Shown in pieces: positions 3,541 through 47,606 of a DNA stretch of 56,767 nucleotides. A program made the translations under genes and the position numbers. Below the pieces are notes generated by a model. The model made no database searches. It was not told where the DNA came from and saw nothing but the letters and a program-made list of their open reading frames with translations. The DNA comes from Acidimicrobiia bacterium (GTDB lineage: Bacteria > Actinomycetota > Acidimicrobiia > Spongiisociales > Spongiisociaceae). Location of the stretch: positions 1 through 56,767 of the forward strand of contig VXMM01000053.1 in the NCBI GenBank assembly GCA_009841105.1, in the 5' to 3' direction. How positions within the stretch are numbered: position 1 is the stretch's first letter; every line of letters starts with the position of its first letter.

Positions 3541-3826
3541 GTCAGTTGTTAGTCAGTAGTTGTTAGTTGCTGGTTTCTAGTTGATCGTGGTCGGTCTGCG
3601 TTGCGGCGGCGTGCTCTGGACCGCCATCGACGCCCCTGGCTGCGTCCTGCCTCCTCAACGTACCCTGCGGGTACGCCTTCGTCAGCAGTCCTTGCCATAG
3701 ACGCCGCTGCCGGCGCCACGTCCCACCGCCACCCCACAGACCGACCACGGGGCCGCGATAACAAACAAGCGCTCATAGCGTGAACACGTCCTAGTACTAC
3801 AAGCTGGGAACTAGAAACCGACTAGT
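3541..3826. repeat. Short TAGT/ACTAG minisatellites and 11-base inverted repeat around the MITE
   Basis: GGTTTCTAGTT (3572-3582) and AACTAGAAACC (3809-3819) form an 11-base perfect inverted repeat outside the 13-base repeats of the MITE-like element. The left flank (3543-3582) is a degenerate run of TAGTTGT/TAGTCAG-type units, and the right flank repeats CTAGTAC/CTAGAAACCGACTAG. Nested inverted repeats suggest insertion of one repeat inside another, or a large cruciform. No gene is present in 3476-3861 apart from these repeats. Confidence 0.55.
3586..3749 (-). mobile_element. MITE-like element with 13-base terminal inverted repeats (copy 2)
   Basis: The left end CGTGGTCGGTCTG (3586-3598) and the right end CAGACCGACCACG (3737-3749) are perfect 13-base inverted repeats bounding 164 bases with no transposase. 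Inside is a perfect hairpin CGTACCC-GCA-GGGTACG and the segment shared with copy 1 at 1122-1240, in opposite orientation. No convincing target-site duplication is seen. It fills most of the 386-base gap between upp and ffh. It could be a miniature transposable element or a structured repetitive intergenic sequence; small ORFs inside are not credible genes. Confidence 0.6.
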
Positions 3827-38363: not shown

Positions 38364-39920
38364 ATGCCTTTCTTTCGGCGCAAGACAGCCGAAATAGTTC
38401 GTCGCGGAGTCGGCGACAAGTCGACCGAAGAACGAACAACTAGAAAAATCAGCGGTAAGACCGTAAAGGTCCGGCGGGTCCGAGAGCTGCCGACCAAGCC
38501 GAAGCACGCGGCGACCAAGGCCGCCGCCAGAAGGAAGAAGAGACAGCCCACGCAAGGCTCGGCGCGGCCCGGGGGCCGTCATCGGGGTCGCTCGCACTCC
38601 CAGGCGGAGGGGCCGGTCCCGCTTCCTGCGGCCGGACGTCGCCAGATGCTGGTCCGGGTGTTGCCCCACCAGACCCAGATCGTGGTGCTGGAGGGGTCTC
38701 TGCTGGTCGAGCACTACGTCCACCGGTCCGCACAGGAGTCACTGGTCGGCAACATCTACAAGGGTGTTGTCCGCAGCGTGTTGCCCGGCTTGGAAGCTGC
38801 CTTCGTGGACATCGGCACGGAGAAGAACGGGGTTATCTACGCAGGGGACCTCAATTCGGCCCGGCGCACCCACGGTCGGGGACCGCGTATCGAGCGGCAG
38901 CTCAAGCAGGGCGACCACCTGTTGGTCCAGGTCGATAAGGACCCGATGGGCAGCAAGGGACCGCGCCTCACCAGCCAGATGACCCTGCCCGGTCGGCACT
39001 TGGTGCTGTCACCCAAGAACTCCATGCTGGGCATATCTCGTCGCCTGCCCGAGCCCGAACGCAACCGGCTGCGGCTGCTTCTCCAGGCGGAGCGTCCACC
39101 CGGCTTCGGTCTCATCGCGCGTACGGCTGCGGCCGGCTCCTCGAGGCGGGAGATCGTGGCTGATATCGGCCGACTCAAGGCGAAGTGGGCGGAGGTCGAG
39201 AAGGCCGGTGAGGCCGGGTCCGCGCCCCGGCTCATCCACGAGGAGCCCAGCCTTCTGATCCGGGTGATCCGAGAGCACTTCACGCGGGATTTCCGTCGCA
39301 TGCTGATAGACGATCGCCGCGCTCACGAGGCGGTCCTGAAGTATCTGAAGGAGGTTTCCCCGGATCTGGTGGACAGGGTGCATCTCAACCAGGACCGGAA
39401 TCAGAACCTCTTCACCCGCTTCCGGGTGGATGACCAACTCCGCCGGGCGCTGGATCGCAAGGTATGGCTGCCGTCAGGGGGGCACCTCGTGATCGACCGG
39501 ACCGAGGCGCTTACGGTGGTCGACGTGAACACCGGTAAGTACGTGGGAGAGGCGAACCTCGAGGACACTGTCCTTCACAACAACCTGGAAGCCGCCGAGG
39601 AGATCGGGCGCCAGCTTCGCCTGCGAGATATCGGTGGGATCATCGTCATCGATTTCATCGACATGGAAGTCAAGAAGAACCGTGAGGCGGTTCTGGAGCG
39701 GCTCCGGGCCGCGCTCGCCGCCGACAAGACCACCACCCAGGTGCACTCCGTATCGAGTCTCGGTCTCGTCGAGATGACGCGGAAGAACGTGTCCAGCGGT
39801 CTGATAGAATCCTTCTCCGATCCTTGTCCCACCTGTGACGGGCGCGGCCTCATCCTTCACGAGAAAGCGGCAACCTCAGGGGTTCCGATCAATCCGGTGG
39901 GCGATAAGGTCGCCATGTGA
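38364..39920 (+). CDS. rng: Ribonuclease E/G family endoribonuclease
   Basis: Endoribonuclease for mRNA decay and rRNA/tRNA processing. The 518-residue protein has a basic, Lys/Arg-rich N-terminal extension (about 1-90), then the S1 domain (NIYKGVVRSVLPGLEAAFVDIG, about 128-149) and the catalytic core with VDVNTGKYVGEANLEDTVL and IIVIDFIDME (Asp residues for Mg). The Zn-link is SDPCPTCDGRGLI near the C-terminus. ATG 38364 is chosen because AAGGAGA precedes it by eight bases; an in-frame ATG at 38322 is less likely. Size fits RNase G or a short RNase E; the degradosome scaffold tail of E. coli RNase E is absent. Confidence 0.94.
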   Translation: MPFFRRKTAEIVRRGVGDKSTEERTTRKISGKTVKVRRVRELPTKPKHAATKAAARRKKRQPTQGSARPGGRHRGRSHSQAEGPVPLPAAGRRQMLVRVLPHQTQIVVLEGSLLVEHYVHRSAQESLVGNIYKGVVRSVLPGLEAAFVDIGTEKNGVIYAGDLNSARRTHGRGPRIERQLKQGDHLLVQVDKDPMGSKGPRLTSQMTLPGRHLVLSPKNSMLGISRRLPEPERNRLRLLLQAERPPGFGLIARTAAAGSSRREIVADIGRLKAKWAEVEKAGEAGSAPRLIHEEPSLLIRVIREHFTRDFRRMLIDDRRAHEAVLKYLKEVSPDLVDRVHLNQDRNQNLFTRFRVDDQLRRALDRKVWLPSGGHLVIDRTEALTVVDVNTGKYVGEANLEDTVLHNNLEAAEEIGRQLRLRDIGGIIVIDFIDMEVKKNREAVLERLRAALAADKTTTQVHSVSSLGLVEMTRKNVSSGLIESFSDPCPTCDGRGLILHEKAATSGVPINPVGDKVAM

Positions 39921-39981
39921 ACCGTGGTCGGGCCTTGGTAGACGCCCGGCAGGGATACGATCGAAAGGGTGTGTTTCCGAC

Positions 39982-40296
39982 ATGTACGCCATCATCCGCT
40001 CGGGCGGCAAGCAAGCCAGAGTGTCCGAAGGCTACGTGATCGACGTGGAGTTGATGAACGACGCCGGGGACGAGGTGACCTTCACGCCGTTGCTCGTGGT
40101 CTCCGATGAAGGCGCCGTTATCACGAGCCGGGAGGAACTCGCCGGAATGCAAGTCAAGGCTCGTGTGCTCGGCAACATCAAGGGCCGCAAGGTCGAGGTG
40201 TTCAAGTACAAGAACAAGTCCGGGTACCGACGCCGCAAGGGCCATCGCCAGCGCCACACCCGCCTCGAGATAACGCATGTGGGCGCCGTCACCTGA
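39982..40296 (+). CDS. rplU: 50S ribosomal protein L21
   Basis: L21 binds 23S rRNA. The 104 residues are full length: MYAIIRSGGKQARVSEGYVI at the start and the C-terminal VFKYKNKSGYRRRKGHRQR. ATG 39982, 61 bases after rng. The usual partner rpmA follows, but only after a 262-base gap that holds repeats and a promoter. Confidence 0.98.
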   Translation: MYAIIRSGGKQARVSEGYVIDVELMNDAGDEVTFTPLLVVSDEGAVITSREELAGMQVKARVLGNIKGRKVEVFKYKNKSGYRRRKGHRQRHTRLEITHVGAVT

Positions 40297-40400
40297 CCTT
40301 GATAGTGGCCAGTAGCCAGTTCGCGACCTGGAGGTAGTCAAGTTCCTTTGGCCCCCGGGCCTTGTGTCCTGTTCCTGACAGTTCCGTGCTACACCATCCA

Positions 40401-40456
40401 CTGACCACTGACCACTGACCACTGACCACTGACCACTGACCACTGACCACTGACCA
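40401..40456. repeat. Tandem array of eight 7-base units (CTGACCA)
   Basis: Eight perfect consecutive copies of CTGACCA occupy 40401-40456 between rplU and rpmA. The unit contains CTGACC, one base from the -35 consensus TTGAC(A). Degenerate related sequence (CCAGTAGCCAGT) lies upstream near 40308-40321. There is no spacer, so it is not a CRISPR array. Confidence 0.9.
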
Positions 40457-40477
40457 AAGGGGCCAACGGGCTATAAT
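40450..40477 (+). promoter_or_regulatory. Promoter of rpmA, -35 embedded in the repeat array
   Basis: A perfect TATAAT lies at 40472-40477. The last repeat unit supplies CTGACC (40450-40455) with a 16-base spacer, a good sigma-70-type promoter. The transcript would start near 40484 and have a roughly 75-base leader, with AGAGGAGG as ribosome-binding site just before rpmA. Confidence 0.65.
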
Positions 40478-40558
40478 TCCAGGTCCGGAGCACGAGATTC
40501 TGCTCCATTCACCGTACGAAACCCGATCTGTGAAGAATCGGGGCCAGAGGAGGCCTGT

Positions 40559-40816
40559 ATGTCCAAGACCAAGGGTGGAGGGTCCACCAAGAACGGGCGT
40601 GATTCGCATGCCAAGCGGCTCGGCCCGAAGGTTTTCGATGGTCAGGAGATCAAGGCGGGGACGATCCTGGTTCGCCAGAGGGGTACCCGCATCCATCCGG
40701 GAGTCAATGTACGCCGCGGCGGTGATGACACCCTCTTCGCGATCGCACCGGGCACGGTCAAATACCACCGGCAGGGGGGTCGCCGCCGGGTGAGCGTGCT
40801 GTCCGACCTTCGCTGA
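40559..40816 (+). CDS. rpmA: 50S ribosomal protein L27
   Basis: L27 reaches the peptidyl-transferase centre. The 85 residues are full length: [20 protein letters not shown], then [28 protein letters not shown]. No N-terminal cleavable extension of the Firmicutes type is seen; the glycine-rich start is encoded directly. ATG 40559 follows AGAGGAGGCCTGT. Confidence 0.98.
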
Positions 40817-40865
40817 TCCTCAGGACGCCCGGTACGGGACGTCCCTGACCGAGTGACGGTGGATC

Positions 40866-42128
40866 GTGTTCATCGACCAGGTGCGCGTCCATCTTCGATC
40901 GGGTAACGGCGGGGCGGGCGCGGTGTCGTTCCGCCAGGTCGGTCGCCGTCCCCGGGGAAAGCCGGCCGGGGGTTCAGGCGGGCGGGGTGGAAGCGTGCTC
41001 GTGGCCGTGGACGAAGGGATGTCCACCCTGGCGGACTTCCGGCGCCGCCCCCATCGCGCCGCGGATGGCGGGAGCCATGGCGCATCGGACCTTCGTCATG
41101 GGCGCCAGGGCGAGGATCTGATCGTGCGGGTTCCTGCGGGCACGATGGTGATCGATGACGAGGATCGGCTGGTTGCCGACCTGGTAGCTGCGGGTCAGCA
41201 GGTCACCGTACTGGAAGGCGGCCGCGGAGGCCGGGGCAACGCGGCGCTGGTCTCACCCACCAACCGGGCGCCTTCCTTCTGCGAGCAGGGCGAGTACGGG
41301 ACGGAGGCCTGGTTCACCCTGGAGATGAAGCTGGTTACCGACGCGGCGTTGATCGGTTTTCCCAACGCCGGCAAGTCGACACTGATCTCGCGGGTGTCGG
41401 CCGCCCGCCCCAAGATCGCCGACTATCCCTTCACCACGTTGGTCCCCAACCTGGGAGTGGTGACGATCGACGACCGGTCCTTCGTCATGGCCGATGTGCC
41501 AGGTCTGGTGGAGGGGGCCGCCGACGGTAAGGGACTCGGACACGAGTTCCTCCGTCATTGCGAGCGAGCCAGGGTCCTGGTGTTCCTCCTCGACCCGTCG
41601 CCATTGCAGGAGCTTTCCCTGGAACGCCAGTACGAGATACTCGAGCGTGAGCTCCGTAGGCACGACCCAGGCCTGGCCGATCGCCCACGGGTGGTAGCCG
41701 TCACCAAGCGTGACCTTTCCGTCGAGAGCCCGGTGACCAGCACCCTGCTCGAAGTGGCGCCGGACCTGATCGAAGTCAGCTCGGTGGCCGGGCAGGGCCT
41801 GAATGATCTGGTCCATCGGATCGCCGACACAGTTGACCGGGCAGGCGCGACGAGGGGGGACCAGGTCGAGGGCTATGTCCTGCATCGCCCGCTCGCCGCC
41901 ACCTTCGAGGTGGACCGCGTGGACGGCGTGTGGGTCGTGAACGGTCGCGCCGCGGAGCGGGCGGTGGCTTTCAACGACCTGACTCTGAGCGACGCCGCCC
42001 TGCTTGCCGCCCGCCGGCTCTCTCGCCTCGGGGTGGATGACTCTCTGCGCCGAGCGGGTGCCCGGGAGGGTGACGAGGTGCGGATCGGCGATCTGGTGTT
42101 CGAGTATTCGGAGCACGACGTTGGATGA
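40866..42128 (+). CDS. obgE: Obg family GTPase (CgtA)
   Basis: Ribosome-assembly and stress-linked GTPase. The 420-residue protein has the glycine-rich Obg fold (1-158: FIDQVRVHLRSGNGGAGAVSFRQ; GGSGGRGG). The G domain has GFPNAGKSTLIS (about 165-176), DYPFTTLVPNLG, ADVPGLVEGAADGKGLG and TKRD. The C-terminal OCT domain (about 345-420, FEVDRVDGVWVVNGRAAERAV) is typical of actinobacteria and Firmicutes. Start GTG 40866. It overlaps the proB start by eight bases. Confidence 0.96.
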   Translation: MFIDQVRVHLRSGNGGAGAVSFRQVGRRPRGKPAGGSGGRGGSVLVAVDEGMSTLADFRRRPHRAADGGSHGASDLRHGRQGEDLIVRVPAGTMVIDDEDRLVADLVAAGQQVTVLEGGRGGRGNAALVSPTNRAPSFCEQGEYGTEAWFTLEMKLVTDAALIGFPNAGKSTLISRVSAARPKIADYPFTTLVPNLGVVTIDDRSFVMADVPGLVEGAADGKGLGHEFLRHCERARVLVFLLDPSPLQELSLERQYEILERELRRHDPGLADRPRVVAVTKRDLSVESPVTSTLLEVAPDLIEVSSVAGQGLNDLVHRIADTVDRAGATRGDQVEGYVLHRPLAATFEVDRVDGVWVVNGRAAERAVAFNDLTLSDAALLAARRLSRLGVDDSLRRAGAREGDEVRIGDLVFEYSEHDVG

Positions 42129-47600: not shown

Positions 47601-47606
47601 TATAAT
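47601..47606 (+). promoter_or_regulatory. -10 box (TATAAT) before rsfS
   Basis: A perfect TATAAT immediately follows the nadD gene. The best upstream -35-like hexamer is TTGAAA at 47574-47579, but the spacer is 21 bases, so the -35 is doubtful. The run GAGGAGG (47619-47625) lies just inside the predicted transcript. Confidence 0.4.

Follow-up and report, generated by a model that had tools for sequence, protein, structure and literature searches.

REP and BIME sequences, which occur with RAYT transposases, are extragenic, lie 3' of genes, are avoided between divergent genes and have inverted symmetry. The STRR and small dispersed repeats of cyanobacteria treated by Elhai in 2008 are reportedly heptanucleotide kin. 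Arrays of GGGAATC or GGGGA(T/C)T heptamers in Xanthomonas and Nostoc are described in the available sections of Rehm et al. 2015 (PMC4692102). According to those sections, the repeats are dispersed and intergenic, lie at most 50 bp from stop codons or overlap them, and are few between divergent genes; in Xanthomonas, convergent array pairs number 70 and 75 cases, and the number of units is variable. The same sections judge phase variation unlikely and report no general association with mobile elements. The available part of MacGregor 2015 (PMC4679880) describes TAACTGA heptamers in Beggiatoaceae, cyanobacteria and some Bacteroidetes; the arrays of the Orange Guaymas Beggiatoaceae are placed there mostly just before start codons, with one inverted pair only. 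In Nostoc, the heptanucleotide repeats in P6b of the tRNA-Leu intron pair into a hairpin, as given in the accessible portion of PMC3488679. Our literature search, outside which most subscription papers lay, found no published description of CCACTGA arrays or of the element described below.

The window analysed here is a stretch of 56,767 nucleotides from an Acidimicrobiia bacterium (contig VXMM01000053.1), and the features of its rplU-rpmA junction are collected in Table 1. Pattern search finds eight CTGACCA units head to tail at 40401-40456, and TRF reports the tract as a CCACTGA array of period 7 with 100% matches, the top-scoring array in the window. TATAAT, which occurs twice in the window (the second time at 47601, both on the plus strand), stands 16 nt downstream of the last CTGACC, and a promoter scan of 39900-41000 finds this single sigma-70-like site, at 10/12, against 0.3 expected in shuffles. 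The eight units and the perfect TATAAT at a 16-base spacing had been pointed out in the first-pass annotation, and this is confirmed. The contig begins with homopolymer C runs of 21 and 30 nt (1-21 and 89-118), which are probably an assembly or sequencing artefact.

Table 1. Features of the rplU-rpmA junction, in window coordinates
Feature	Position	Strand	Basis
rplU (ribosomal protein L21), upstream gene	39982..40296	+	NCBIfam TIGR00061 above cut-off; ORF
Left arm, three AGT-phased heptamers AGTGGCC AGTAGCC AGTTCGC	40304..40324	+	inverted heptad pairing with 40400-40455
Body of the dispersed element, ~75 nt, starts GCGACCTGGAGGTAGTCAAG	40323..40397	+	copy alignments; model R1
Right arm, 8.4 copies of CCACTGA	40398..40456	+	TRF, pattern search
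TATAAT, probable -10 of the rpmA promoter, outside the dispersed element	40472..40477	+	present in G000, G003, G005
Conserved leader from TATAAT to rpmA, with GGAGCA/TGCTCC stem	40478..40558	+	tail conservation in three species; fold z -1.5
Shine-Dalgarno-like AGAGGAGG in the rpmA leader	40546-40553	+	
rpmA (ribosomal protein L27), downstream gene	40559..40816	+	NCBIfam TIGR00062 above cut-off

The array is most likely the right arm of a dispersed inverted heptad element, and it adjoins what is probably a real rpmA promoter. The element measures about 155 nt and consists of a left arm of AGTGGCC-type heptamers, a body of about 75 nt and a right arm of ACTGACC heptamers. In the window, the only AGT->ACT inverted heptad pair is that of 40304-40324 with 40400-40455; the last 2 nt of the left arm (40323-40324) also belong to the body. 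When the 276-nt rplU-rpmA gap was searched against its own genome (3.05 Mb, 69 contigs), the best match spanned nt 23-171, corresponding to 40307-40455, and no significant match covered the TATAAT or the leader.

A sequence-only model of the element, R1, was built from 10 copies and matches 40304-40413 in the window's genome with an E-value of 1.4e-24. The R1 copy counts are lower bounds, with 150 candidates scored per genome: at E<=0.1 there are at least 159 matches in all 10 genus genomes, one of which (G002) holds a single weak match (E 0.06), and at E<=1e-4 there are at least 143 matches in 9/10 genus genomes, with one weak match in five other family members. In the aligned copies, the left arm is built of AGTGGCC/GGTTGCC heptamers, mostly AGTGGCC outside the window, and the right arm of ACTGACC heptamers. 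The commonest units of the two arms, AGTGGCC and ACTGACC, are inexact complements, with a C/A mismatch on the plus strand that becomes G-U in minus-strand RNA. With a mean identity of 0.61-0.74 inside genomes and 0.69 between them, the copies are old and divergent, and on a quick tree of 84 copies the genome labels switch 53 times. A recent burst was rejected, since identity within genomes does not exceed identity between them.

Could the array instead have expanded by chance through slippage at this one place, unrelated to any other site? In most prokaryote genomes, heptamers predominate among the longer simple repeats (Mrazek 2007, as cited in the available part of PMC4679880), which favours a local expansion. 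However, homology between sites extends beyond the array, and the inverted order of the arms is non-random. For the rplU-rpmA locus, the matches of model R1 elsewhere refute a purely local slippage, and we find this explanation hardly credible.

Other heptamer tracts were seen in the same genomes. In the window's genome, a six-unit array of the same heptamer (L009, G000:C9:6790-6839) follows what appears by eye to be the stop codon of rplL (L7/L12); its left arm is of another sequence (TAGTTGGTGGTTGG) and the body is missing, which makes it a second, body-less form. Within the window, a lone AGT-phased heptamer run (AGTTGTTAGTCAGTAGTTGTTAGTTGCT) lies at 3544-3571 between upp (minus strand) and ffh (plus strand), both genes named by eye. 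Two contigs of the same genome (C48 and C52, loci L024 and L025) contain one and the same sequence of about 290 nt, which may be an assembly duplicate or a strain variant. In G003, many R1 matches stop some 35 nt short of a contig end, which looks like a break of the assembly within the array.

Where do the dispersed copies lie? Gene orientation was called with a codon model, which was right for 36 of 37 segments of its own first training genes, and was applied to 84 of the 85 R1 loci (the partial L013 was dropped). Both neighbours could be called for 53 of these 84 copies, a sample that includes a few orthologous pairs, and they comprise 22 (+,+) arrangements, with both genes running along the element, 10 (-,-), with both running against it, 17 convergent and 4 divergent. 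The stop codon of the upstream gene was measured in 56 copies and in most of them is no more than about 20 nt away from where the element starts (range -76 to +21). For convergent genes, the distance from the stop to the end of the array has a median of about 2 nt (33 measured, range -41 to +78). The start of the element often itself contains the stop TAG, as (C)TAGTGGCC, and some copies begin at TGA or TAA stops. TAG accounts for 38/64 stops near elements against 21/71 in the background (Fisher p 5.5e-4), again in a sample with a few orthologous pairs.

This distribution bears directly on the proposal of the first-pass annotation that the eight CTGACC units act as tandem -35 elements, giving alternative or additive contacts for sigma/RNA polymerase, and that slippage tunes or switches rpmA by changing their number. 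The exact TATAAT 16 nt from the last CTGACC favours such a promoter, as does the same 16-nt spacing in both G000 (the window's genome) and G003. Unit number does differ between species (8, 16 and 4 at rplU-rpmA in three of them), so that part of the proposal is supported, but the part that makes the units -35 elements is not. Each CTGACC agrees with TTGACA at 4/6 positions, and because the tandem array repeats this match at no extra cost, eight units do not amount to eight times the evidence for a promoter. All units before the last lie at least 23 nt from the -10, beyond sigma-70 geometry.

The same array recurs across the genome at the 3' ends of genes, where it forms one arm of a dispersed element; the other CTGACCA arrays that were looked for are many and lack a -10, which comes close to what the first-pass annotation had itself named as evidence against its idea. 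Among 68 of the 85 copies, those with the required CTGACC run, a script rule found TATAAT 5-44 nt after the array only in the window and in G005, both at rplU-rpmA; the rule missed the TATAAT of G003, where the array ends in mixed units, and which was seen by eye. There was no peak of TANNNT at 16-18 nt after the arrays of the 68 copies (16: 2, 17: 0, 18: 0). G005 retains the TATAAT but has no -35-like hexamer at 15-19 nt (best 2/6). A core ribosomal protein gene is also an odd target for phase variation, which counts against the tandem -35 reading. With arrays at gene 3' ends lacking a -10, TATAAT confined among the 68 copies to rplU-rpmA, and G005 without a -35-like hexamer at 15-19 nt, a bank of tandem -35 elements was rejected, and we consider it very unlikely.

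A promoter in front of rpmA is a separate matter, and here the first-pass annotation fares better. The distance from TATAAT to the ATG is 87, 88 and 87 nt in the three species with the element, and this tail is 81-89% identical among them, compared with 87-90% for rplU and 72-79% for the body. The conservation of TATAAT and its 87-88-nt tail in three species makes it plausible that TATAAT and the leader form a real rpmA promoter. Judged on sequence, the -10 and leader look functional and the array does not look like the partner of the -10, although in the window species the last unit may by its position serve as a weak, incidental -35, and the terminal unit may have a promoter role in G003 too. 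The locus shows by example that what looks like a striking 'promoter array' can be the arm of a dispersed repeat.

Comparison of orthologous junctions, for which the flanks of nine copies were located in other genomes and 20 junctions were read, shows the element present in some genomes and absent in others. In some relatives the junction is short and lacks the element, for example at the sites of L190, L207 and L015; in others a small heptamer spacer of another kind takes its position (L266, L267, L269 and L270). No target-site duplication is evident in six aligned junction sets, in which CTAG was looked for. The element is found between rplU and rpmA in three of 10 genus members (G000, G003 and G005). 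The gap measures 262 nt in the window and 0, 10, 25, 25 and 25 nt in five of nine relatives, which confirms that the usual rplU-rpmA operon is split here. A core ribosomal-protein gene pair has been opened and closed inside one genus.

On a tree of the locus, G000, G005 and G003 do not form one clade, with weak deep support (59, 61); the patchy presence of the element on this tree requires losses or recombination. Over 110 columns, the window copy shares 88% identity with a copy located elsewhere in G006 and 75% with those that hold its own position in G003 and G005, which suggests replacement or re-insertion. The case for mobility rests on presence and absence and on this closer match to the G006 copy, given that no target-site duplication was demonstrated, that no transposase was linked to the element, and that the copies are old and divergent.

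The rplU-rpmA gap of two further relatives, G007 and G008, holds a different and unrelated insert flanked by CTAG. This insert (L037 and L038) is about 165 nt long and has the ends TGGTC...GACCA. CTAG is present in the short rplU-rpmA gaps of G001, G004 and G009, at the site that the insert occupies in G007 and G008, and the insert is likely a MITE with a 4-nt target duplication. A stretch beside the lone heptamer run of the window, at about 3585-3750, resembles it by eye (common CCTCAACGTACC..TGCGGGTACGCCTTCGTCAGC).

Is the heptad element, too, a MITE? It may have entered CTAG-like targets at TAG stops, with the heptamers expanding later, which would be a special case of the dispersed element that we favour. 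The excess of TAG stops at element starts, the many copies beginning with (C)TAGTGGCC, the presence and absence at orthologous junctions, and the MITE-like, CTAG-flanked insert in the same gap of G007 and G008 are all consistent with such an origin. By contrast, the aligned junctions show no target-site duplication, the CTAG bias is only suggestive, and several copies start at TGA or TAA. A MITE has fixed terminal inverted repeats, whereas the element ends in inverted heptad arms that are inexact and of variable length. A search for the Y1 (RAYT) transposase PF01797, the one transposase family searched, gave 0/10 genus genomes and was positive in 5/14 control genomes; its absence from all 10 speaks against a MITE that depends on this family. 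On balance, we regard a MITE origin as possible but somewhat unlikely. Membership in the REP/RAYT group was rejected, as PF01797 is found in none of the 10 genomes.

The placement at gene ends also raises the question of a selected RNA. The hairpin formed by the arms might end or protect transcripts, often those of two convergent genes; here it would end rplU transcripts, so that rpmA would need its own promoter. The position of copies at stop codons and between convergent genes, and the same placement across phyla (see below), are in line with a 3'-end RNA element. On the minus strand of the window copy, about 20 pairs, G-U among them, join the two arms into a stem (z -1.3), and over the first 60 of the 85 copies the mean fold z is -1.85 on the minus strand and -1.27 on the plus strand, modestly better than shuffles. 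On the other hand, the plus strand of the window copy, that of the rplU-rpmA transcript, folds less well than shuffles (z +2.1), alignment-based folding supports no conserved structure (10 pairs, covariation term unfavourable), no U-tract terminator was found on the plus strand in the scan of 39900-41000, and relatives do without the element. A selected 3'-end RNA therefore seems to us distinctly unlikely.

Two further RNA candidates were discarded. A stem bracketing the array, from the inverted pair 40345-40355/40459-40469, is by eye not kept in G003. A known Rfam RNA found no match, either for window 40290-40570 (0 at E<=5) or for 13 loci (0 at gathering).

Does the same array occur beyond the genus? 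An exact 29-mer, equal to four units, was found in at least 118 stretches. Among the matches listed are records from Planctomycetaceae, Caldilineaceae, Acidobacteria, Verrucomicrobiales and Anabaena, as well as Flavobacteriaceae, Desulfobacterales, Acidimicrobiia, Streptomyces and others. A 22-mer occurs 2 to 244 times (overlapping counts) in 27 array-bearing genomes and its reversed control in 0/27; as these genomes were chosen for having the array, only the zero reversed controls are informative. An even sample of Actinomycetota has the 22-mer in 3/396 genomes and the reversed control in one, so the array is rare in Actinomycetota at large.

The order of the arms was examined at 91 of the 118 listed loci, those with 200-nt flanks on both sides. 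An inverted arm was scored wherever at least two successive AGT kept a 7-nt phase. Such an arm occurs in the 200 nt upstream of the array in 32/91 loci against a shuffle expectation of 4.1, and downstream in 0/91, among loci that are not independent, as several share a genus and several come from this genus. Direct ACT-phased runs flank the arrays on both sides (28 and 27 of the 91 loci). The relation to stop codons was read at 72 of the 118 loci, those with 700-nt flanks, of which 26 have an inverted arm. In 22 of these 26 the left arm lies at a stop codon, that is, within -60..+20 nt of the stop of a same-strand ORF of at least 120 codons, and in 13 of 26 the right end lies at a minus-strand stop; the corresponding values for random positions, which fall mostly inside genes, are 0.109 and 0.105.

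It is tempting to see in these loci one bacteria-wide class of 3'-intergenic element, in which inverted heptad arrays surround a variable body in the order AGT...-> <-...ACT at stop codons. Its members would share one heptamer across Planctomycetes, Chloroflexi, Acidobacteria, cyanobacteria, Verrucomicrobia, Bacteroidetes, Desulfobacterota and Acidimicrobiia, the cause being an enzyme or replication process, common to all, that both makes and spreads them, with the arms as handles for body exchange. We put this forward tentatively and think it rather unlikely. If the cross-phylum pattern holds, it would unite the heptamer reports from Xanthomonas, Nostoc and Beggiatoaceae under a single architecture, with the order of the arms fixed and their position fixed at gene ends, and the question of why heptamers dominate the long simple repeats of bacteria would become testable.

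For the rplU-rpmA locus itself, the dispersed heptad element can be put into a simple scheme. A short non-coding element, its heptamers reading roughly AGTNGNY inward from both ends, would have reached the 3' end of rplU by insertion or exchange. Its unit number would then change through replication slippage and unequal recombination between heptamers. The arms could form a hairpin with imperfect pairing, which would improve on the minus strand as the C/A mismatch turns into G-U. Comparison of the 10 species shows the element separating rplU from rpmA in three and missing in others; at the junctions that it splits, rpmA would be served by its own promoter, with the -10 and leader just outside the element. 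The element itself, if it has any role, may be a 3'-end hairpin, a terminator or a stabiliser, or it may simply be a selfish repeat.

How does this element relate to the known systems? Like REP and BIME sequences, it is extragenic, lies 3' of genes, is avoided between divergent genes and has inverted symmetry. It differs from them in that no Y1 transposase occurs in any of the 10 genomes and in that heptad arrays replace the single palindrome. The repeats of the Nostoc tRNA-Leu intron, as far as the accessible portion of PMC3488679 describes them, share with it heptamer halves that pair into a hairpin and a length that changes by copy number; those repeats are intronic and of other units.

With the TAACTGA repeats, in the part of MacGregor 2015 available (PMC4679880), the array shares the NNACTGA register (CCACTGA here), an intergenic position and a scatter over unrelated phyla. 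Unlike those repeats, the unit here is CCACTGA, the element stands at stop codons with an inverted partner arm, and array and start codon are not a few nucleotides apart, the array ending at 40456 and rpmA starting at 40559.

The element works like convergent heptamer repeats and is a variant of them with another unit and a conserved body. As in the available sections of Rehm et al. 2015 (PMC4692102), tandem heptamers of varying unit number are intergenic, lie at stop codons and are rare between divergent genes (4/53 here), and they form inverted array pairs, here at this locus and at 32/91 loci across phyla. In contrast to the G-rich, quadruplex-forming unit described there (GGGNATC), AGTGGCC and ACTGACC contain no GGG, so the element is not a member of the G4 class. 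It also differs from those repeats, as these sections present them, in that its arms enclose a conserved body of about 75 nt and in its presence and absence at orthologous junctions.
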